Origin: Gammaproteobacteria bacterium
Lineage (GTDB): Bacteria; Pseudomonadota; Gammaproteobacteria; DSM-16500
Assembly (NCBI GenBank): GCA_013287745.1
Contig: JABDDF010000015.1
Span: 2,589 to 37,645, forward strand
DNA length: 35,057 nucleotides
Direction: 5' to 3'
How positions within the stretch are numbered: the stretch's first letter is position 1; each line of letters starts with the position of its first letter. Both the position numbers and the translations under genes were made by a program. Below are positions 7,110-16,808 of the stretch, in pieces. The notes below the pieces were generated by a model, which ran no database searches, had not been told where the DNA came from, and was given only the letters and a program-made list of their open reading frames with translations.

Positions 7110-8309
7110 ATGAGAAGCATCAATACTAAGCAGGAAGATTTAATTCCATTCAGCCTCCCTTCAAGACAAGCTAGAGAAATGGATTATGTCCTAGAGGCGA
7201 TGCATAGTCATCATAGACATGGTGCGGGAAATTTTACAAAGCGCGCGATTGCAAAACTCAATGCTATCACAGGGGTTAAAAATATTCTCCTTACCCATTC
7301 CTGTACGGGCGCATTAGAGCTTGCCATGCTGTTAATGGATATTCAACAAGGTGATGAAGTGATTATGCCCTCATTTACCTTTTCTTCAACAGCAAATGCA
7401 GTCGTTCTGCGTGGTGCAAGGCCAGTCTTTGCAGATATTGATCTGAATACTCTATGTCTTGACCCCAATGCAGTGGCAGATTTAATTAGCCCACAAACAA
7501 AACTTATTTTACCAGTGCATTATGCGGGTGTTGGCTGTGACATGGCGTCATTATGTGCGATTGCCAAAGAACATGGGCTTGCCATTATCGAAGATGCAGC
7601 GCAGGCAATTGGCGCAAGCTTCAATGGCAGGGCCTTAGGTTCATTTGGTGAATTGGGTGCCTTGAGTTTTCATGATTCAAAAAATATTTCCTGTGGTGAA
7701 GGCGGGGCCCTCTTAATCAACAATGAGAATATGCTTGAACGTGCTGAAATATTATGGGAAAAGGGGACTAATCGCAGCCGATTCTTACGCGGTGAAGTTG
7801 ATAAATATACTTGGGTCGACCTGGGTTCATCATTTTTGCCAAGTGATGTTAGCGCTGCATTTTTACTGGGACAATTAGAGCGAGTTGAGCAAATTAATAA
7901 TGAGCGCTGCCAAATTTGGAATAATTATTATTCTGCTTTTTCTCTGGCAGAATCTAGTGGTGTGTGTACGCGGCCCTTTGTGCCTGATTCTTGCCAGCAT
8001 AATGGACATATTTTCTATCTTCTCTTAAATAATATGGACGCACGAAATAATATGCTAATGCATTTAAAAGCAAATGGAATTAGCGCTACCTTTCATTATG
8101 TTCCTCTCCATAATAGTCCCGCTGGCATGCAATTTGCTAACACACCTCATTCCTTGCCGAACACTGAAAAGGCTGGAAATTGCTTGATACGATTACCGCT
8201 ATTTCCTGAAATGACTTTGGCTCAACAGGAAAAAGTGATTTCAGTCGCGAATGATTTTCTTTTTGCCCAAATACAAGCTCACGATAGGAGTGTAAAAGTA
8301 AGTATATGA
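7110..8309 (+). CDS. WecE-like sugar-nucleotide aminotransferase (DegT/DnrJ/EryC1/StrS family)
   Basis: PLP-dependent aminotransferase that converts a 4-keto-6-deoxy nucleotide sugar to the 4-amino sugar. In E. coli WecE makes dTDP-4-amino-4,6-dideoxygalactose (TDP-Fuc4N). Similarity to WecE runs end to end: LLTHSCTGALELAMLLMDIQ, DEVIMPSFTFSSTANAVVLR, PVHYAGVGCDM, EDAAQAIG, the PLP lysine Lys191 in SFHDSKNIS, WEKGTNRSRFLRGEVDKYTW and FHYVPLH. The 399-aa length is a little above WecE because of about ten extra N-terminal and some C-terminal residues. The ATG is well supported by ggaggg at 7098-7103. First gene of the operon, overlapping the next by ATGA. The exact sugar and nucleotide are not certain. 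Confidence 0.88.
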   Translation: MRSINTKQEDLIPFSLPSRQAREMDYVLEAMHSHHRHGAGNFTKRAIAKLNAITGVKNILLTHSCTGALELAMLLMDIQQGDEVIMPSFTFSSTANAVVLRGARPVFADIDLNTLCLDPNAVADLISPQTKLILPVHYAGVGCDMASLCAIAKEHGLAIIEDAAQAIGASFNGRALGSFGELGALSFHDSKNISCGEGGALLINNENMLERAEILWEKGTNRSRFLRGEVDKYTWVDLGSSFLPSDVSAAFLLGQLERVEQINNERCQIWNNYYSAFSLAESSGVCTRPFVPDSCQHNGHIFYLLLNNMDARNNMLMHLKANGISATFHYVPLHNSPAGMQFANTPHSLPNTEKAGNCLIRLPLFPEMTLAQQEKVISVANDFLFAQIQAHDRSVKVSI

Positions 8310-8866
8310 GCTACATACAAAGTAAAATAAGTACTTGGCGTACTAGCTATCCCAATACAAGTTTTTTGCTTTACTCTTATTTCTCAACATTAAGTGCAGT
8401 TGCCTTAGATCTTCTGCCGCATTTTATTAGGAATATCATTTTTCGATCTTGCCTGGCTAAATTGGGGGAAAACACACTTATCGATTACAAAGTATATATG
8501 CGATATTTTAAAAACATTGAAATTGGCAGCCATGTTGCAATTAATAGGGGCTGTGAATTATATACATCATTTCATTTAGGAAAAAAAATATCGATTGGTA
8601 ATAATGTAACGATCTCTCCCAATGTCAAATTTTACGGTGCAGCCCAAGATTATCGCAGTAAGGCGATGCCTGATATAGCTGATGACATCATTATTGAAGA
8701 TGATTGTTGGATTTGCGCAGAGTCAATTATATTGCAAGGTGTTACAATAGGCAGGGGCAGTGTGATTGGCGCTGGCAGTGTAGTGGTAAAGAGCATTCCG
8801 CCTTATTCAGTGGCCGTTGGTAATCCAGCAAAAATTATCAAGGAAAGAATTTATCGTGAGAACTAA
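8306..8866 (+). CDS. WcaF-like left-handed beta-helix (hexapeptide) acyltransferase
   Basis: 186-aa protein of the LbH_MAT/WcaF type, typically acetyl-CoA dependent O- or N-acetyltransferases of sugars. About 60 N-terminal residues precede hexapeptide turns such as IEIGSHVAINRG, ISIGNNVTISPNV and VTIGRGSVIGAGSVVVKSIPP, ending in the typical VAVGNPAKIIKER. Where family members usually have the catalytic histidine in SHDYRSP, this protein reads AAQDYRSKAMP with Gln114 in the histidine position. The fold is intact but catalysis may be altered. It overlaps the aminotransferase stop by 4 bp, suggesting the amino sugar is its substrate, as for VioB, FdtC and QdtC next to their aminotransferases (inference). 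Confidence 0.8.
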   Translation: MSYIQSKISTWRTSYPNTSFLLYSYFSTLSAVALDLLPHFIRNIIFRSCLAKLGENTLIDYKVYMRYFKNIEIGSHVAINRGCELYTSFHLGKKISIGNNVTISPNVKFYGAAQDYRSKAMPDIADDIIIEDDCWICAESIILQGVTIGRGSVIGAGSVVVKSIPPYSVAVGNPAKIIKERIYREN

Positions 8867-9224
8867 TTTAGTTTTTATTTTTTGCAGCTTATATGCTTTG
8901 CTTAATGCTTCTGCTGCCTTGATTATCAAAAACAAATTACTTACCCATAGAATCAATCAGGTTCATGATTTTATTTTATTTCTGATTGATCCCGTGATTG
9001 CTGTTGCCTTTGTTCTAATTATCGCATCAATGTATTTTTCGATGAAAGCCTTATCCATCTCGGATTTTTCCTTTGTTATTCCTATATCAACTTCAATTAA
9101 TTTTATTCTCACTGTGATTATAGGCATTGCCTTTTTCAAAGATAATCTTGCCTTGGGCAGTTATATAGGACTCGTATTTATCATAATTGGTATTTCATTA
9201 TTAGCTAAATCCTATGGAAGATGA
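8856..9224 (+). CDS. Small four-helix EamA/SMR-type membrane protein (ArnE/ArnF-like)
   Basis: 122-aa hydrophobic protein with four predicted helices at about 3-23, 38-59, 70-91 and 95-116. The size and pattern match half-size drug/metabolite-transporter proteins, including EmrE-like exporters and the ArnE/ArnF flippase subunits of the aminoarabinose pathway. The start GTG at 8856 is chosen because aggaa (8841-8845) lies upstream. The longer reading from TTG at 8817 would place non-membrane residues inside the previous gene without an SD. It overlaps the acetyltransferase by 11 bp. A role in flipping a lipid-linked sugar fits the neighbours but is inference. The conserved membrane glutamate of EmrE is not evident in helix 1. 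Confidence 0.7.
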   Translation: MRTNLVFIFCSLYALLNASAALIIKNKLLTHRINQVHDFILFLIDPVIAVAFVLIIASMYFSMKALSISDFSFVIPISTSINFILTVIIGIAFFKDNLALGSYIGLVFIIIGISLLAKSYGR

Positions 9225-9225
9225 A

Positions 9226-10464
9226 ATGATGCAATTAAATATACCGCGTGGAATAATTTATCATTCTCTATTTCAAAATTTCTCATCTTTTGTTTCCGCG
9301 CTATTTAAACCCTTAGATAATCGAAAACTTGTAAAAAAATTTGAAAGAAAATTTGCTGATTATCTGGGTTGTAAATACGGTCTCGCCTTTCCCTTTGCGA
9401 GAATTGCAATTTATTATTCATTGAAATTGAAAAAATATCCGGCGGGAACGGAAATTATTATGCCGCCTATCACCATCAAGGCAATTTTAGATGTCGTTCT
9501 TGATCTGGGTTTGAAACCAGTTTTTGTTGATATTGATCGCGACACTTTAGGTTTTGATATCAATAAACTTGCTTCTGCCATTACAGTAAATACCAAAGCA
9601 ATACTGATTACCTATCTCTATGGTATGGTGCCAGATCTGGATCCTATGATTGACTTGTGTAAGGCTAATCATCTTTATGTCATAGAAGATTTTTCACAAT
9701 GTCTGAATGGAGAGTATAAAAATAAAAAAGTAGGAAGTTTTGGCGATGTTGGCGTATATAGCTCGTCATCGATTAAAACACTGGATACCTACGGCGGTGG
9801 TTTGCTCGTCACCAATGATACCGACTTGTATCATCAATTATGTGAATATCAAGAGGAATTAATTGCGCCTTCTCGATCTGCTCTCATTAAAAAAATTCTT
9901 ATTAATACGATTAGAAATATGGCTACGACGCGCCTCATTTTTCATTTATTTACCTTTCCCTTACTAAAAATAGTCAGTTCTTTTAAACCACAAACTTATG
10001 CAAGAAATTTGGGTGAACGTGATAGAACACCAATAAGGCAATTGCCGGCAGCATGGTTTACGCGCTATACCTCATTACAAGCTAAGGTTGGCCTTAGCTT
10101 GCTATCTAAGGTGCAATATGAAGATGAAGTCAGAATACATAATTCCAATGAAATTCGTGAGAGTGTCGCTTTCATGTTTCCACGGGGAGCAAAAGATACA
10201 AGAAATGTTTTTTGGCAAACAATTGCGTATTTTTCTGAGCCCTCAGCCGCATTAAAATTATTACGTAATAGTAAAATCGATAGTGCAACGACTAGTTTAG
10301 TTAAAATATCGACTTTGCCTAAATATTCTTTTATGGGGCATACACCTAATGCAGACATGGTATATGAAAATGCCTTGTTTATTCCCGCCTATCCAGGATT
10401 GAGCAATCAAGATATCAAGCATATTATTGTCACATTGAATAACATCTACCAAAGCCAGATGTGA
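9226..10464 (+). CDS. Second DegT/DnrJ/EryC1/StrS-family aminotransferase
   Basis: PLP aminotransferase-fold protein of about 412 aa, clearly diverged from the one at 7110. It keeps the family order: YLGCKYGLAFPFARIAIYYS near the N-terminus, EIIMPPITIKAILDVVLDLG, PVFVDIDRDTLGFD, an IEDFSQCLNGEY segment at the usual EDAAQ position, and the PLP lysine in YSSSSIKTLDTYGGG (codon 9775-9777, residue 184). An insertion after about residue 210 (ALIKKILINTIRNMATTRLIFHLF) is unusually hydrophobic. The ATG at 9226 has GGA at 9216-9218 with 7-nt spacing; ATG at 9214 or 9229 is also possible. The substrate is unknown. Confidence 0.78.
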   Translation: MMQLNIPRGIIYHSLFQNFSSFVSALFKPLDNRKLVKKFERKFADYLGCKYGLAFPFARIAIYYSLKLKKYPAGTEIIMPPITIKAILDVVLDLGLKPVFVDIDRDTLGFDINKLASAITVNTKAILITYLYGMVPDLDPMIDLCKANHLYVIEDFSQCLNGEYKNKKVGSFGDVGVYSSSSIKTLDTYGGGLLVTNDTDLYHQLCEYQEELIAPSRSALIKKILINTIRNMATTRLIFHLFTFPLLKIVSSFKPQTYARNLGERDRTPIRQLPAAWFTRYTSLQAKVGLSLLSKVQYEDEVRIHNSNEIRESVAFMFPRGAKDTRNVFWQTIAYFSEPSAALKLLRNSKIDSATTSLVKISTLPKYSFMGHTPNADMVYENALFIPAYPGLSNQDIKHIIVTLNNIYQSQM

Positions 10465-10476
10465 GCATCTCATTTA

Positions 10477-12060
10477 ATGACTAGAATTGTGATCATTGGT
10501 TCCGGACTGGCAGCCCTGTCTGCAGCGAGGACATTAATCAAACGTGGTATTAGACCGCTTGTTCTTGACTGTGGTGAATCCCTGCCATTGCGGACTCAAC
10601 ATGTTGTCGAGCGAATGGCGAAAATGACAGCAGGGCAATGGTCAAGTGAAGACATTGATCTAATCAGTGAAAATGCCACGATTCATGCTAAAAATAGTCT
10701 TCCAAGAAAATTAGCATTTGGCTCAGATTATTTTTATGGAAATCATAGTAAGGTATTTAATAATACAGCGCAGGAAAATAATCCATTACCGCCCTTTAGT
10801 TTAGCTCGCGGTGGTTTTAGTGTTGGCTGGGGCGCATCCGTTTTGCCTGCCGCTGATTGTGATATAGGATCATGGCCAATCAGTAGTAATGAATTACGAA
10901 AATATTACGCAGCGACTTTGGCAGAATTACCCTTATCAGCCTGTGATGATGAATTATCAGAACACTTTCCCTTGCATGCGGCTGATTGTGATTCATTAAA
11001 ATTAACGAGGGGCAATGCTGCCTTACTGTCGGCATTTCAAGGCAAGACAGAAAAGTTAAAAATGATGCAGGCTGTTGCTGGTCAAGCACGTCTTTTAACT
11101 CGTGTGTCAAATACAAAAACAGCGCCTGGATGTCAATATTGCGGCTATTGTATGAGTGGCTGTGTTTATGGAAATATCTATAAATCAAGTCTTGAGATTG
11201 ATGATTTGATTAAAAATGATTTGCTTGATTATGAATCGGGTGTCTTTGTTAATTACTTACGCGAGAAAGAAGATGCTGTTGCAATATATTTTACTGATAA
11301 AACGAATAGCAGCCATACTATGCAAGCTAAGCGCGTATTTTTAGCCGCTGGTGCAATCGGCAGTGCGCGCATCATTTTGCAATCAAAAAATGTTTATGAG
11401 CAGTCTATTCCATTGCTAGCAACCATTGGATTTATTGCGCCTCTGTTGAGATTAAAAAAAAATATTCTAGATTGGCCTAATATGAATACGCAACCTGCCG
11501 TATTTTTAGAATATAAAGTGCCAAATTTCTCTGATCATTGGGTGCATGCGCAAATTTCAACGGCAAATGAATTAGCTTTGCAAAAATTGGGGCTGTTAAA
11601 GAATGATCATTCTCTCGGCTATAAATTGCGAAAAAAAGCGGCTGAGCATTTAGTTTTTGCAAATTGCAACATGCATTCCGATCATGGTGTGAGTCATTCA
11701 ATCAAATTATGCAAAGATAATTTATTATTTTCACAGATGGGAGATACAAGCCATGCTCGTCAAGCGGTCAAATTAGCGAAAAAAAGGCTATTTTCAGTGG
11801 CAAGAGCAGCGGGTTGCTATGTTTTATTACCCTTTGTTCAGTCTGGCCTTGGTTTTGCCTCAAATCATTTAGGAGGATCACTTCCCATGAAGCATCACCC
11901 TGAAAAAGAAACAGATACCAATATTTTAGGTAATCCTAAGGGATGGTCAAAAATACACGTGCTTGATAGTAGTGTTTTTCCTAGCATTCCGGGGACAACA
12001 ATTGGTCTTTTGGCGATGGCGAATGCGAAACGTATTGTGGATAGTGTAGAGATAAAATAG
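10477..12060 (+). CDS. GMC-type FAD-dependent oxidoreductase with four-cysteine motif
   Basis: 527-aa flavoprotein. An N-terminal FAD-binding Rossmann motif (VIIGSGLAALSAARTLIKRG) is followed by GGFSVGWGASVLP, where GMC members have their second FAD motif, by VFLAAGAIGSARIIL, and by a C-terminal GMC-like end with NHLGGSLPM (catalytic His region) and PGTTIGLLAMANAKRI. A C-x2-C-x2-C-x3-C motif at Cys219, Cys222, Cys225 and Cys229 could bind an iron-sulfur cluster, as in FAD glucose and fructose dehydrogenase catalytic subunits. There is no signal peptide, so it is probably cytosolic or membrane-peripheral. It probably oxidises an alcohol of a sugar or lipid intermediate; the substrate is unknown. 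It follows the second aminotransferase by 12 bases, with no obvious SD. Confidence 0.78.
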   Translation: MTRIVIIGSGLAALSAARTLIKRGIRPLVLDCGESLPLRTQHVVERMAKMTAGQWSSEDIDLISENATIHAKNSLPRKLAFGSDYFYGNHSKVFNNTAQENNPLPPFSLARGGFSVGWGASVLPAADCDIGSWPISSNELRKYYAATLAELPLSACDDELSEHFPLHAADCDSLKLTRGNAALLSAFQGKTEKLKMMQAVAGQARLLTRVSNTKTAPGCQYCGYCMSGCVYGNIYKSSLEIDDLIKNDLLDYESGVFVNYLREKEDAVAIYFTDKTNSSHTMQAKRVFLAAGAIGSARIILQSKNVYEQSIPLLATIGFIAPLLRLKKNILDWPNMNTQPAVFLEYKVPNFSDHWVHAQISTANELALQKLGLLKNDHSLGYKLRKKAAEHLVFANCNMHSDHGVSHSIKLCKDNLLFSQMGDTSHARQAVKLAKKRLFSVARAAGCYVLLPFVQSGLGFASNHLGGSLPMKHHPEKETDTNILGNPKGWSKIHVLDSSVFPSIPGTTIGLLAMANAKRIVDSVEIK

Positions 12061-12071
12061 GGAGTCAAAAA

Positions 12072-14642
12072 GTGAATAAGGTTGAAACCAGGAAAAATAT
12101 AATTATTATTATAACGGTATTATGTTTTTTTTCTCTTTTTCTTTTTAGCTGGATAACGAATGGTGGGGTGACGAGCTACGGTTTATATTCAGAAATTGAT
12201 GGACAGGGTTTTGCCTGGACTTCAAAATTCCTCGTTGAGTGGGGACGAAAATTAGATATAAATACGCTCAATCCTTTTCAAGGCATGGGATCTGTATTTC
12301 TTCCAGTGAATCCATGGTGGAATCCCGGTGCATTAGTTATGGATCTTCCAACTAGCCATTTAACTAATTCCCTTATTTCCTATGCGATTTATTGGGCTGA
12401 AATCTTTATTGCCATTTATTTTCTGGCGAAAACAACAGGCTTAAATAAAATAGAATCCATTTTAGCTTCAGAGATCTTTGTTTTATATTTATTTCCTCCA
12501 TTCTCCGCTTATTTTAATACAATACCTTATTTTTCTTTAGCACCAATCTATGCGCACTTGTTTGCAATTATAAGCATCATCACCATTTCCTTTGTCAAAC
12601 TGGGTGAAGGCAGCACTAGGCGAAATATTTTTCTTGTTTTTTTACTCATATTCATGACTTATGTTATTGCTATGGTTGGCGGCTTTGGTATTATTCCCTG
12701 TTTTCCCATTTATGCACTATTTGTCCTAGGTTTTGCCCTACAAAAACGTAATAGACGACAATTATTATGGCAAATGCTAACTATTTCTCTCATCATTTGT
12801 CTTTTTCTTGTCACGCATGCCTATCACTATTATAAAGATACCTTGGGATATGTTTCTGCTTCTGTTGGCACATCGAAAAAAATTGCCTTCTCTATTCCTA
12901 CAGTATGGCGGGAACATACAAGTATTTTCTACGGTTCTCCTCCTTTGTTTTCCTATCTTCATGTTTTTGCATTACTGGGTGCTTTGGTTGGAATATTTTG
13001 TCAACGGGGCAAATATAGGTGGATAGCATGTAGTTTTGTTTTTATTGTATTAATGCCAGATACTTTAAATTTCCTTTTTGCGAATGGCATTGTTTCAGGC
13101 AGTATCAGCCAAATTAATTTTGCCTATTATCTTTGGAGTGCCTATCCCTTATACGGTATTTTTGCCGTTATATTGATGTCTTTTCTCTGGCATCTGATGG
13201 CTCAAATAATGAGTTTTGCCGTCAATAAAATAGCAAAAGGCAGTTCAAAAATAAATTCTGTCTTTCATTCATTCAGCATAAATTATCTCATATTATTGGC
13301 ACCCTTCATTCTGCCTGCACTGGCATTTTATATTTGGTTCGGCAATTTTTCCAAGAGTTCAGAACATGTTAAAGAACCGAGTAGAACGCCCATTGTTAAT
13401 TATCTTGAAACGCAAATAGGGCTCAAACCAGGCGATATTTTCAGAGGTACAACTATTTCATATTTTGCGAGTAAAGATGCGCCGTTGAGACAGGCTATTA
13501 TACATGTTATTGAGAGTCCTTATGACGTAGATCCCCGCTTTTCTATGTCTCACTACATCCTTTCACGCGAATTTTTAAATAGACGTTTTAACAATAGACA
13601 TATGTTTTCCGATTTATGGAATTTTAATATTCCCACGCTAGAAGAATATACCCCATGGATATCACTACCCATGTATGTTTTTTTTGGAAAAATGCTAGCA
13701 GAAAAAAGAGATATTCTTGAGCGGCATTTTTTAAATGTCTATAAATTGGATCTAAAAGTTCTACGATCCTTGGGCACGCGATTCATTATAACTGATAAAA
13801 TATTGAATGATAAAGATGTCTCTTTGGTGATGGTAGAAAATCAACAATTAACTAAGCCGAATGACGGTTATATTGATTATAATGTTTCAACTTCTGCTGG
13901 GAAAATTTTTGAAAATTTAATCAATAAATATAGTCACGGCACTGTAGCGCGCGCCGATTTTATAAGAGAATTTAATGATAAATTAGCCGAAATCTATCCT
14001 GCTATGCAGCAAGACAGAGAGAAAACGATTAATTTTTTATATAGTGCAATAAATTCTGCGCTTGCTGAAAAGAGTGACGTGCTCATTTGGTCGCAAATGG
14101 ATTTGAAGAAAATTAAAAGATATTATGATATCGTTCTTTTTATGTGGATGGGCAGTCCACCTTTATATTTATACGAAATTCGAAATCCTAATCTTGCAAG
14201 TTTTAGTCCAACCAAGGTAATTCAAATTAATTCAGCAGATAAATTATTTTCGCAAATGTCAAAGCCGGATTTTTCCTTTGAACAATCAATCATTATACAA
14301 AATAAATTGCCGGCCAACATTGTCAGTCATTTGCTAATGGCAAATAACACTCAGATGCGTTATGAACGAAATGCTGTGCAAGTTAAGGCGGAGAGTAAGG
14401 GGTGGTCTATCTTGCTATTGCCACTTCAATATTCTCACTGTTTCCGTATTAGCAACATGACAGCGTCTTCAAATGATCGTGAACCCGTTCGTTTGATTCG
14501 TGCCAACTTAGTCAATGGAGCGCTTTTATTTAATGGGAATATAGATGTCAAACTGAAATTTGCTTTCGGAATAGGTAAAAACGTGAATTGTCGAAAAAAA
14601 GATATTCAAGACATGCGAAATCTTGGCCTGATAGTTGGTTGA
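12072..14642 (+). CDS. Large multispanning YfhO-like membrane protein (GT-C-like), paralog 1
   Basis: 856-aa protein: about ten transmembrane helices up to residue ~425, then a soluble domain of about 430 residues. The first loop carries LYSEIDGQG (Glu41, Asp43) and NPFQGMGSVFLPVNP, reminiscent of the acidic first-loop motif of GT-C glycosyltransferases and YfhO proteins. The C-terminal part has NFNIPTLEEYTPWISLP, LGTRFIITDKIL, FSPTKVIQI (711-719), WSILLLPLQYSHC and a second cysteine (Cys790 and Cys840). All these recur in the next gene, so the two are paralogs. The C-terminal domain is probably periplasmic and the cysteine pair may form a disulfide (inference). GTG start with ggag at 12061-12064. 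Function unknown; lipid-linked sugar transferase is the leading guess. Confidence 0.65.
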   Translation: MNKVETRKNIIIIITVLCFFSLFLFSWITNGGVTSYGLYSEIDGQGFAWTSKFLVEWGRKLDINTLNPFQGMGSVFLPVNPWWNPGALVMDLPTSHLTNSLISYAIYWAEIFIAIYFLAKTTGLNKIESILASEIFVLYLFPPFSAYFNTIPYFSLAPIYAHLFAIISIITISFVKLGEGSTRRNIFLVFLLIFMTYVIAMVGGFGIIPCFPIYALFVLGFALQKRNRRQLLWQMLTISLIICLFLVTHAYHYYKDTLGYVSASVGTSKKIAFSIPTVWREHTSIFYGSPPLFSYLHVFALLGALVGIFCQRGKYRWIACSFVFIVLMPDTLNFLFANGIVSGSISQINFAYYLWSAYPLYGIFAVILMSFLWHLMAQIMSFAVNKIAKGSSKINSVFHSFSINYLILLAPFILPALAFYIWFGNFSKSSEHVKEPSRTPIVNYLETQIGLKPGDIFRGTTISYFASKDAPLRQAIIHVIESPYDVDPRFSMSHYILSREFLNRRFNNRHMFSDLWNFNIPTLEEYTPWISLPMYVFFGKMLAEKRDILERHFLNVYKLDLKVLRSLGTRFIITDKILNDKDVSLVMVENQQLTKPNDGYIDYNVSTSAGKIFENLINKYSHGTVARADFIREFNDKLAEIYPAMQQDREKTINFLYSAINSALAEKSDVLIWSQMDLKKIKRYYDIVLFMWMGSPPLYLYEIRNPNLASFSPTKVIQINSADKLFSQMSKPDFSFEQSIIIQNKLPANIVSHLLMANNTQMRYERNAVQVKAESKGWSILLLPLQYSHCFRISNMTASSNDREPVRLIRANLVNGALLFNGNIDVKLKFAFGIGKNVNCRKKDIQDMRNLGLIVG

Positions 14643-14657
14643 TATGGAGTTAATGAG

Positions 14658-16808
14658 ATGAAAAGTATTTTCAACACCATACAGTACGATCAGAAAGCAT
14701 TGCAGCTGCCATGGCGCTTTATTTTAATCAATATCATTTTATTTATTATATTTAGCGCGCTAGCATTTCATCAGAATGCAATGTATCTCTTTTATTCTAA
14801 TGATGGTCAGCATACCTTGGCACTAGCAAGATGGTCGGCAATTTGGCATGGCTCGGAATTTGGTTTTTCAAATAATTTTTTACAATCCAATGGCGGTATT
14901 GGATTTCCGTTAAACACAGCATTATTTCCAGGCTTTATCCTGGCAGCCTTATTTAAAAATAATATTATTTATAGCGAGGTCGCCGCCTATCTTGTATTTG
15001 CTTTGGAATTTTTTTCTATTGCGCTGATCATATCTCGTTCGATTGGTCTTAGCTGGAATCTTGCATTGATTTCTGCTTGGGTTCTCCCACTTATTGCCTA
15101 TCCCTATCACTATTATGCCTATCTCTATAACATAATGGAGACTGTTCCAGAATTAGGTACAGTCATCGTTGCTTCAGATTTAATTATCATTTTATTTGCA
15201 TTTTTAGGCAGATCGACTATTCGTCGATTTCTATTTGGCTCCGCAGGTATTATTTTATTATTGGTATACATCGTCATTGCAAATCCACCCTCTATCGTCA
15301 TGTCTGCCCCAATCATTGCCCTGGTATGTTTGGGATATCTTATTTCATGCGCATCTATTAGAGAGAAAAAATTTAAAATATTTTTTACAGCCGCAACCTT
15401 AGTGATTTCAATTCCATTGATAATATTTGTTTATAGTGTGCTTAAATTTACTGTTTCCTATTATTTAACCGCAAATTTAAATTATGGTGAGCACACAATA
15501 ATAAATTGGTATTACATTTCCTTGCTTTTTCATGGCAAAGACAACCCAGATACCTGGCTATTTACGATGGCTAGTCTTGGCGTGGTGCTTTGTTCTTTTT
15601 CCGGAAACAATTTTCAAAAATCATTTGCTCGTGCTGTCTTGTTCGCAATGATTGTACTCATAGGATTTGGGATAGTTTTAACCAGCACTAATTTTTGGAC
15701 TGGTCCCATGCCCTTTTATTTTGAATTTATGCTATGGCCTTTTTATGTATGTTATTCAGTTGCCTTTGTCGGAGCCGTTTTTGCTGCGATAAGCAAATTA
15801 CTTTTTTCTAAATTACAATTTTATGTAAACATTCTTGTTAGAGCTTTAATTATATTAATGCCCTGGTCATTGTTTCTTCTTGCAGCTCCTATAGGAGATT
15901 GCTGGGATGTTCCCAAACCACCAACCAAGACTGCAATTACAGAAATTTTAAATAATAATATCGCACTTGCACCGGGTAAGCCGTTCCTGGGGAGAGTGGC
16001 TAATTTTACCGGACTTAAAATAAAGAAGCCGGTAACTTGGGGGGCTGATATTGCAGCAAATGATAATGAAATATTAAGACAAACGGGCAATGATCATCGC
16101 ATGAGTGGAAATTGGTTTTATAATATTCCTACACTTGAAGTGTATACACCCGTTATATCGCCCATTTATTTTCAATTTGCAAAATTCTTTTTTGCTCTGC
16201 CAGAGGATGAGCAGATACGCTCTGTGATTACGATGAGAAATCCTAACATCCGTTGGTTGACGGCACTGGGTGTTAGATATGTTGTCACAGATGCCTTGCT
16301 GCCGCATGCAAACTTAGTCAAAGTGATGCCGTTAAAAAACATGGGCGATCTTTATTTATATGAATTATCGATTCCGAATATTGGGCAATATTCACCAACT
16401 AAGATAATTCAATTGACAAACTCGAAAGATATTTTAGACAAGTTAAATGAAAGTAATTTTGATCCTCAAACACAGGTTGTCACTGAAATTACTTTGCCGA
16501 TGGCTCTTAATAAAGCAATTAATGGAAAGATAATTGTAGATAAGGGATCTATTAATGTGTCGGCTAGCAGCCAGGGATATTCCTTATTACTTTTGCCGCT
16601 AGAGTATAGTCATTGCCTTACACTGCGGTCACATCTAGCAAAGGAACAAGCACCCCGGCTATTTCGTGCAAATCTAACGCAAACAGGCGTTTTATTTTAT
16701 CGTAAACTGGATGCTTCAATTCGCTATTTTACGGGGCCCTTATCTCATCCTACTTGTCGATTAGCTGATTCAAAAGACTTTGAGAGACTTTCATCATTAA
16801 GAGATTGA
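14658..16808 (+). CDS. Large multispanning YfhO-like membrane protein (GT-C-like), paralog 2
   Basis: 716-aa paralog of the preceding protein, about 140 residues shorter, mainly within the soluble domain. The membrane part (to about residue 420) begins with a helix at 21-38, then FYSNDGQHTLALARW (Asp49) and NNFLQSNGGIGFPLN, aligning with the first-loop motifs of the neighbour. Shared C-terminal landmarks are FYNIPTLEVYTPVISP, LGVRYVVTDALL, YSPTKIIQLTNS, YSLLLLPLEYSHC (Cys653) and HPTC (Cys700), with cysteine spacing of 47 against 50 in paralog 1. ATG start with ggag at 14646-14649. Last gene of the operon; a separate thrS promoter overlaps its stop. The pair may work as a heterodimer or act in sequence (inference). 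Confidence 0.65.
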   Translation: MKSIFNTIQYDQKALQLPWRFILINIILFIIFSALAFHQNAMYLFYSNDGQHTLALARWSAIWHGSEFGFSNNFLQSNGGIGFPLNTALFPGFILAALFKNNIIYSEVAAYLVFALEFFSIALIISRSIGLSWNLALISAWVLPLIAYPYHYYAYLYNIMETVPELGTVIVASDLIIILFAFLGRSTIRRFLFGSAGIILLLVYIVIANPPSIVMSAPIIALVCLGYLISCASIREKKFKIFFTAATLVISIPLIIFVYSVLKFTVSYYLTANLNYGEHTIINWYYISLLFHGKDNPDTWLFTMASLGVVLCSFSGNNFQKSFARAVLFAMIVLIGFGIVLTSTNFWTGPMPFYFEFMLWPFYVCYSVAFVGAVFAAISKLLFSKLQFYVNILVRALIILMPWSLFLLAAPIGDCWDVPKPPTKTAITEILNNNIALAPGKPFLGRVANFTGLKIKKPVTWGADIAANDNEILRQTGNDHRMSGNWFYNIPTLEVYTPVISPIYFQFAKFFFALPEDEQIRSVITMRNPNIRWLTALGVRYVVTDALLPHANLVKVMPLKNMGDLYLYELSIPNIGQYSPTKIIQLTNSKDILDKLNESNFDPQTQVVTEITLPMALNKAINGKIIVDKGSINVSASSQGYSLLLLPLEYSHCLTLRSHLAKEQAPRLFRANLTQTGVLFYRKLDASIRYFTGPLSHPTCRLADSKDFERLSSLRD

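Follow-up and report, generated by a model that had tools for sequence, protein, structure and literature searches.

Within the 35,057 nucleotides of gammaproteobacterial DNA analysed here, referred to as the window, two adjacent genes code for large membrane proteins, A and B, which probably represent an old GT-C-type paralog pair moving an undecaprenyl-phosphate-linked, N-acylated 4-amino-4,6-dideoxyhexose onto an envelope glycan. GT-C enzymes decorating periplasmic glycans are already well known, and A and B are unsurprising in kind; they form an unnamed group within a known kind of enzyme, which is marked by a family-specific cysteine pair. For this family, which is unnamed in Pfam, NCBIfam and PHROGs, a fold and a membrane topology, together with a probable pathway, can now be proposed.

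Two ancient paralogs of an unnamed family

The two genes and the features referred to in the following are:

12072..14642, + strand: protein A, 856 aa, GT-C-like membrane protein with a predicted periplasmic C-terminal domain; GTG start
12198..12206, + strand: DGQ of A (residues 43-45), opening the first periplasmic loop (motif position and family alignment)
14430..14441, + strand: YSHC of A (residues 787-790) with the first conserved cysteine (Cys in 8 of 8 alignment rows)
14589..14591, + strand: Cys840 of A, the second conserved cysteine (Cys in 8 of 8 alignment rows)
14658..16808, + strand: protein B, 716 aa, GT-C-like membrane protein with a predicted periplasmic C-terminal domain; ATG start
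14802..14810, + strand: DGQ of B (residues 49-51; motif position)
15915..16808, + strand: C-terminal soluble domain of B (residues 420-716), kin of the YfhO-type and probably of the AftD C-terminal domains (hhalign, structural model and VIA-align)
16605..16616, + strand: YSHC of B (residues 650-653) with the first conserved cysteine (motif position)
16755..16757, + strand: Cys700 of B, the second conserved cysteine (motif position)

Both genes lie on the + strand, are separated by 15 bp and carry a GGAG a few bases 5' of the start codon. A preliminary description of this DNA had reported both reading frames, the motifs common to them and a cysteine pair in each protein, all of which are found exactly at the positions given there. 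Besides DGQ and YSHC, these are NPFQGMG at residue 67 of A and NFLQSNGG at residue 73 of B, IPTLE.YTP (520 in A, 490 in B), LG.R(F/Y)(I/V).TD (567 and 537) and SPTK(V/I)IQ (712 and 579). In BLASTP, A and B align in two segments, the first at 32% across 154 columns (E 1e-24) and the second at 24% across 652 columns (E 6e-20). This similarity is beyond chance, and by this measure the two are true, diverged paralogs, as had been proposed. Pfam, NCBIfam and PHROGs contain no family that either protein matches better than by chance.

Together with six further proteins A and B make up a family of eight known members, all devoid of a Pfam match and spread over four gammaproteobacterial genomes, namely the window's own, G006 from the same genus, and the metagenome-assembled genomes G246 (JACQWY010000032.1) and OFTM63 (JAJFKM010000041.1). 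G006 harbours three copies, of 858, 775 and 672+ aa. In the third (L002 1489-3735, - strand) codon 673 is an in-frame TAG, located ahead of the conserved YSHC block. As the conserved frame resumes behind this stop, copy 3 may be a gene that was disrupted recently or else a shortened form. While G246 contains a single family gene, OFTM63 possesses one whole copy and a second one of 330 aa (L025 12556-13548, - strand) consisting of the soluble half with both cysteines, the membrane half being gone. Damaged genes thus account for two of the eight members.

In the alignment of the eight members only the two C-terminal cysteine columns are conserved in all rows, in agreement with the conservation claimed for this pair in the preliminary description, while the remaining five cysteines of A and five of B are not conserved. 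The first of the pair lies within YSHC (FSHC or FSNC in some rows), the second, 42-50 residues further on, within C-R (C-L in one row). The common first-loop DGQ, also put forward in that description, is present in A and B, but family-wide only its Asp-Gly holds: this dipeptide opens the first loop in all seven rows having an N-terminus and is followed by Gln in just three of them. The Asn of NPxQG is likewise kept in 7 of 7 such rows.

A tree of the eight members is divided, with support values of 100/99, into a B side (B, G006 copy 3, G246 and OFTM63 copy 1) and an A side, in which A pairs with copy 1 of G006, and copy 2 of G006 with copy 2 of OFTM63. The branching order within the B clade is unsure since the long branches of G246 and OFTM63 meet there. 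All four genomes carry a B-side gene and three of them an A-side gene. A recent tandem duplication is ruled out as the origin of the two neighbours, since A clusters with copy 1 of G006, and B shares its clade with members of three other genomes; judged from the tree, A and B are members of two old clades and hence an ancient pair.

Fold, topology and the C-terminal cysteine pair

Hydropathy predicts 11 TM segments in A as well as in B, and a model of full-length B shows 11 long helices in the TM half. With the N-terminus inside, the loops of A predicted to be cytoplasmic contain 17 Lys+Arg compared to 7 in the periplasmic ones (hydropathy loops). For B the Lys+Arg density amounts to 0.149 per residue in predicted cytoplasmic versus 0.021 in periplasmic loops if the helix limits of the model are applied; only then does a positive-inside bias become visible, the plain hydropathy loops containing 7 versus 9 such residues. 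As 11 helices and an internal N-terminus place the C-terminal half on the outer side of the membrane, this half of A and B is predicted to be periplasmic, and the cytoplasmic location which the preliminary description had considered as a possible objection is at odds with the number of TM segments and with the positive-inside bias.

From six sequences AlphaFold2 yields a model of full-length B of low overall quality (pLDDT 57, pTM 0.51), with the loop bearing the DG motif (residues 40-88) falling below a pLDDT of 50. In a second look by VIA-align, rows 1 to 40 of the 50 PDB entries listed all belong to GT-C proteins, with Z falling from 14.7 to 7.2, and unrelated rows start at Z 6.9; the best match reaches Z 14.7 with an rmsd of 6.5 over 398 residues, although helical models may attain Z 14 in VIA-align without having a clear relative. 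The GT-C rows comprise OST/STT3, PglB, AglB, PMT, ArnT, AftA, AftB, AftD, Emb, ALG, DPY19 and GPI proteins, including PIG-U type chains, which we take to be GT-C-like. The top three Foldseek matches of the same model are AftA and AftD chains. Because of the low model confidence we accept a GT-C fold for A and B with caution. The assignment as GT-C-type membrane enzymes, made before from the sequence, thus agrees with the fold comparison, the enzymatic activity itself being predicted. It also agrees with the features by which GT-C enzymes are recognised, 8-13 TM helices and an acidic residue in the first extracytoplasmic loop, as we find 11 TM segments and Asp-Gly in all seven rows having an N-terminus. 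This Asp-Gly is likely to be catalytic or donor-binding.

In contrast to full-length B, the C-terminal beta-domain, modelled on eight sequences, is predicted with confidence (pLDDT 83.7, pTM 0.85). In VIA-align the domain of B matches the mycobacterial arabinofuranosyltransferase AftD (6wby) with Z 10.1 over 234 residues (rmsd 4.8), compared to Z 3.7 for the next entry. Foldseek with this domain model yields no PDB match at E 0.001, a viral structure library contains no match to it, and sequence searches of the family proteins against PDB chains return nothing meaningful.

The preliminary description had called both proteins YfhO-like. YfhO (PF09586) is a GT-C transferase for LTA/WTA glycosylation in Firmicutes. 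Like A and B it combines multiple TM segments with a large extracytoplasmic C-terminal domain, and according to a review it works together with a GT2 making undecaprenyl-P-sugar (PMC8035078). PF09586 is unmatched in all eight family members at E 0.5, and nowhere in the window's genome is a match found. For a comparison of profiles we used 200 genomes of the phylum, 29 of which contain a PF09586 match; 20 loci were taken and 13 aligned, leaving out L033, L039, L044 and L046 (wrong-frame ORFs), L040 (short) as well as L038 and L043, the latter two looking close to included rows. Alignment of the family profile to this YfhO-type profile by hhalign covers 169 columns within the C-terminal domain (probability 97.5, E 8.5e-12) and scores 105, compared to at most 19.0 in all 13 controls (one reversed, 12 block-shuffled). 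The C-terminal halves alone yield E 1.4e-10. The TM halves alone score 15.9 versus 19.0 for the reversed control, a comparison weakened by the YfhO-type loci, which except for L041 may lack an N-terminal part. The term YfhO-like therefore holds for the C-terminal domain, at the level of profile-profile comparison; the membrane half shows no similarity above control in this partly truncated set, and PF09586 itself does not match. YfhO appears in none of the structural match lists of the C-terminal domain, an absence which carries no evidential weight.

The 13 YfhO-type rows share the signature YxPGW...DG, in which W697 is invariant and G703 nearly invariant. YSHC aligns onto YxPGW, the first cysteine corresponding to the residue before the invariant Trp. 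At the position of this Trp the family contains Leu, Phe, Tyr or, in G246, Trp, and the DG of YxPGW..DG is missing. From this alignment we infer a C-terminal domain of YfhO type whose signature has been changed and to which a cysteine pair has been added, so that, unlike YfhO, A and B carry YSHC in place of the Trp signature and a second cysteine 42-50 residues later. A C-terminal domain of YfhO type, resembling that of AftD in its predicted structure, occurs with altered signature in gammaproteobacteria. The cysteine pair lies in the predicted periplasmic domain and DsbB is encoded in the window's genome; conservation, topology and DsbB suggest that the two cysteines may form a disulfide. Together with Asp43 of A and Asp49 of B, the pair provides precise residues for testing.

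The sugar cassette and a proposed pathway

Upstream of A the following genes precede the pair in the same direction:

7110..8309, + strand: WecE-type sugar 4-aminotransferase, opening the cassette (exceeds the cut-offs of NCBIfam NF008687 and TIGR02379)
8306..8866, + strand: hexapeptide (left-handed beta-helix) acyltransferase (PF00132, 1.5e-13; WcaF-like, below cut-off)
8817..9224, + strand: small SMR/EamA-like membrane protein, candidate lipid-P-sugar flippase (weak)
9214..10464, + strand: second, diverged DegT-family aminotransferase (PF01041, 9.9e-48; alignment with WecE)
10477..12060, + strand: GMC-like FAD oxidoreductase (weak FAD-binding/GMC matches, GMC_oxred_N/C about 1e-3)

All genes of this cassette (7110-16808) point the same way, and as far as thrS neighbouring genes are no more than 50 bp apart or overlap by no more than 50 bp. 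The matches of the candidate flippase all remain below cut-off (TMEM234 1.1e-5, EamA 9.4e-5, ArnE 7.3e-4); its gene overlaps that of the acyltransferase by 50 bases as called, its true start probably lying further in. The second aminotransferase retains the Lys column aligned with that of WecE. Promoter and terminator counts within the cassette do not exceed those in shuffled sequence. The G+C content is 0.35-0.37 at 9.0-10.5 and 12.0-16.5 kb compared to 0.377-0.453 in the remaining 1.5-kb steps.

A GT2 gene is absent from the operon of the window. On another contig of the same genome (C2), uvrB is followed by genes for WbqC, an ArnC/PgfS-like GT2 (PgfS 1.7e-47, ArnC 3.5e-35, both below cut-off), a methyltransferase, a hexapeptide protein, an SDR, a GNAT and an AMP ligase. 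Relatives of the WbqC, GT2 and hexapeptide genes are found near the family genes of both G006 and G246, those of the SDR and the AMP ligase near that of G246. Of the WecE relatives, the one in G006 (70% identical) is encoded at a distance of 3 kb from a family gene and the one in G246 (52% identical) about 20 bp in front of the family gene; none is present in the 15 kb examined of OFTM63. There, a GT2-methyltransferase fusion is encoded within 3 kb of the family genes. G006 copy 2 adjoins a GT2 gene behind which an LPG_synthase_TM gene is located. About 1 kb from copy 1 of the same genome (L013 7593-9845, - strand) a protein of 751 aa with a hydrophobic start and without Pfam match is encoded.

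Fold, neighbourhood and partner genes, taken together with PMC8035078 and PMC11127046, lead us to infer a multi-component periplasmic glycosylation system. WecE would make a 4-amino sugar in the cytoplasm which acyltransferases would then modify, the product probably being an N-acylated 4-amino-4,6-dideoxyhexose. The ArnC/PgfS-like GT2 encoded outside the window operon would load this sugar onto undecaprenyl phosphate, the SMR-like protein would flip the lipid-linked sugar across the membrane, and A and B would transfer it in the periplasm from undecaprenyl phosphate to an envelope glycan, probably in two different transfers.

Several known systems resemble this arrangement. ArnT, the undecaprenyl-P-L-Ara4N transferase, resembles A and B in the GT-C fold, the aminosugar logic and an SMR-type flippase partner, which for A and B is a candidate; its entries 5f15 and 5ezm match the B model with Z 12.1 in VIA-align, but there is no match between ArnT and A or B at the level of sequence families. 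AftD combines a GT-C core with a C-terminal periplasmic domain, the arrangement predicted for A and B. It is, however, far longer than A and B (1250-1312 residues in PDB entries) and shows no sequence match to them in PDB chains, and the sugar genes found here are unlike an arabinan pathway. In the GT136 system of C. youngae (ORF12), as portrayed in PMC11127046, a polyprenyl-P-sugar synthase, a flippase and a GT-C enzyme add periplasmic side chains; by description, the GT-C enzyme of this three-component pentofuranose system also possesses an extra periplasmic domain, but its sugar genes differ from those of the A/B cassette. The Pgf system of S. mutans resembles the A/B system, again by description, in comprising two membrane proteins, PgfM1 and PgfM2, and one GT2, PgfS; PgfM1 is proposed to act early and PgfM2 last, and PgfM1 differs from A and B in being described as a PMT-2 subfamily member with 16 TM domains (PMC5856776).

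The Pgf membrane proteins, proposed to act at different stages (PMC5856776), offer a precedent for two transfer steps, an arrangement which in our analysis fits somewhat better to A and B than a heterodimer. An obligate heterodimer, with one catalytic subunit and a partner that would serve to recognise the acceptor or to hold the complex together, as in Pmt1-Pmt2 and EmbA-EmbB, is in our estimate unlikely. Entries of both these pairs are among the structural matches of the B model, A-side and B-side genes co-occur in three of four genomes, being adjacent in the window and 0.5 kb apart in OFTM63, and a review speculates that small GT-C enzymes might rely on a separate protein to bind the acceptor (PMC8035078). 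In G006, two A-side genes are 1.2 kb apart and the B-side gene lies about 40 kb off. An obligate pair is, however, hard to reconcile with G246 carrying a B-side gene only, with the A-side copy of OFTM63 having lost its membrane half beside an intact B-side copy, and with the in-frame stop in the B-side copy of G006. Moreover, since both A and B retain the DG motif and the cysteine pair, neither looks like a dead subunit. Quite speculatively, A and B could represent a GT-C family of its own in which the two transfer steps are divided between a matched pair: one protein would add the acylated 4-amino-dideoxy sugar and its partner would extend or cap this sugar, the acceptor site in the periplasmic YfhO/AftD-type domain being built on a disulfide instead of the Trp signature. 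If this were true, transfer would depend on the Dsb system.

That A and B are plain YfhO family (PF09586) members missed by the profile appears quite improbable: the homology of the C-terminal domain (E 8.5e-12) is what such a membership would entail, but PF09586 matches none of the eight members nor anything else in the genome, YSHC replaces the YxPGW...DG signature, and the TM halves score no higher than their control (15.9 vs 19.0, the YfhO rows being mostly N-terminally incomplete). The top structural rows of the B model are STT3 oligosaccharyltransferases, which would suit a transfer of preassembled lipid-linked oligosaccharides instead of single sugars. The order of GT-C subtypes is uninformative, though, because their Z values differ little, and the neighbours and partners (aminotransferases, acyltransferases, the ArnC/PgfS-like GT2) look like single-sugar genes; we regard such an oligosaccharyltransferase or ligase function as very unlikely. 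Hardly credible, finally, is a non-enzymatic scaffold of GT-C-like shape in the manner of PIG-U. GPI-transamidase chains of PIG-U type are indeed among the structural matches and the enzymatic role of every family member is a prediction, but all seven rows that have an N-terminus retain the DG, and the neighbourhood consists of sugar-pathway genes.

Distribution and the uvrB-thrS junction

Family genes are present in 2 of 36 genomes of the order and in 2 of 369 of a class sample, the window's own included in both cases, and in 1 of 398 of a phylum sample, which is the window's own; within the taxonomic family of G246 they occur in 1 of 36 genomes. These scans use a loose first look, so that absences are not firm, and within this scope the distribution is patchy. 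Being missing from most relatives (found in 2 of the 36 genomes in the order), the A/B system seems to be dispensable. A scan of genome contigs with a first alignment, one row of which ends before the C-terminal motif, found no relatives; with a second alignment two loci were obtained, one of them again G246. Plasmids (query B) and phages (query A) yielded no relatives, and among viral contigs two stretches fit a pattern, neither being confirmed as a relative. A match in G005 (E 2.8e-4) was dropped as chance; it contains an internal stop, lies in a cytochrome-oxidase-like region and was not repeated by the profile.

The cassette genes are absent 5' of thrS in all nine same-genus genomes (4.3-13 kb examined). 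In seven of these, uvrB precedes thrS at a distance of 0.3-5.3 kb and is read in the same direction; in the remaining two, the contig ends 4-5 kb from thrS. In the window's genome the operon from WecE to A and B stands before thrS (window upstream of 16854) and the module from WbqC to the AMP ligase after uvrB (L080 1917-13309). Judging from this gene order, a rearrangement seems to have broken an old uvrB-thrS junction, with one half of a single sugar island on either side of the break. A separate set consisting of a GtrB-like GT2, GtrA (PF04138) and a PMT_2 protein is encoded elsewhere in the same genome (contig C48, L081 2049-5154).
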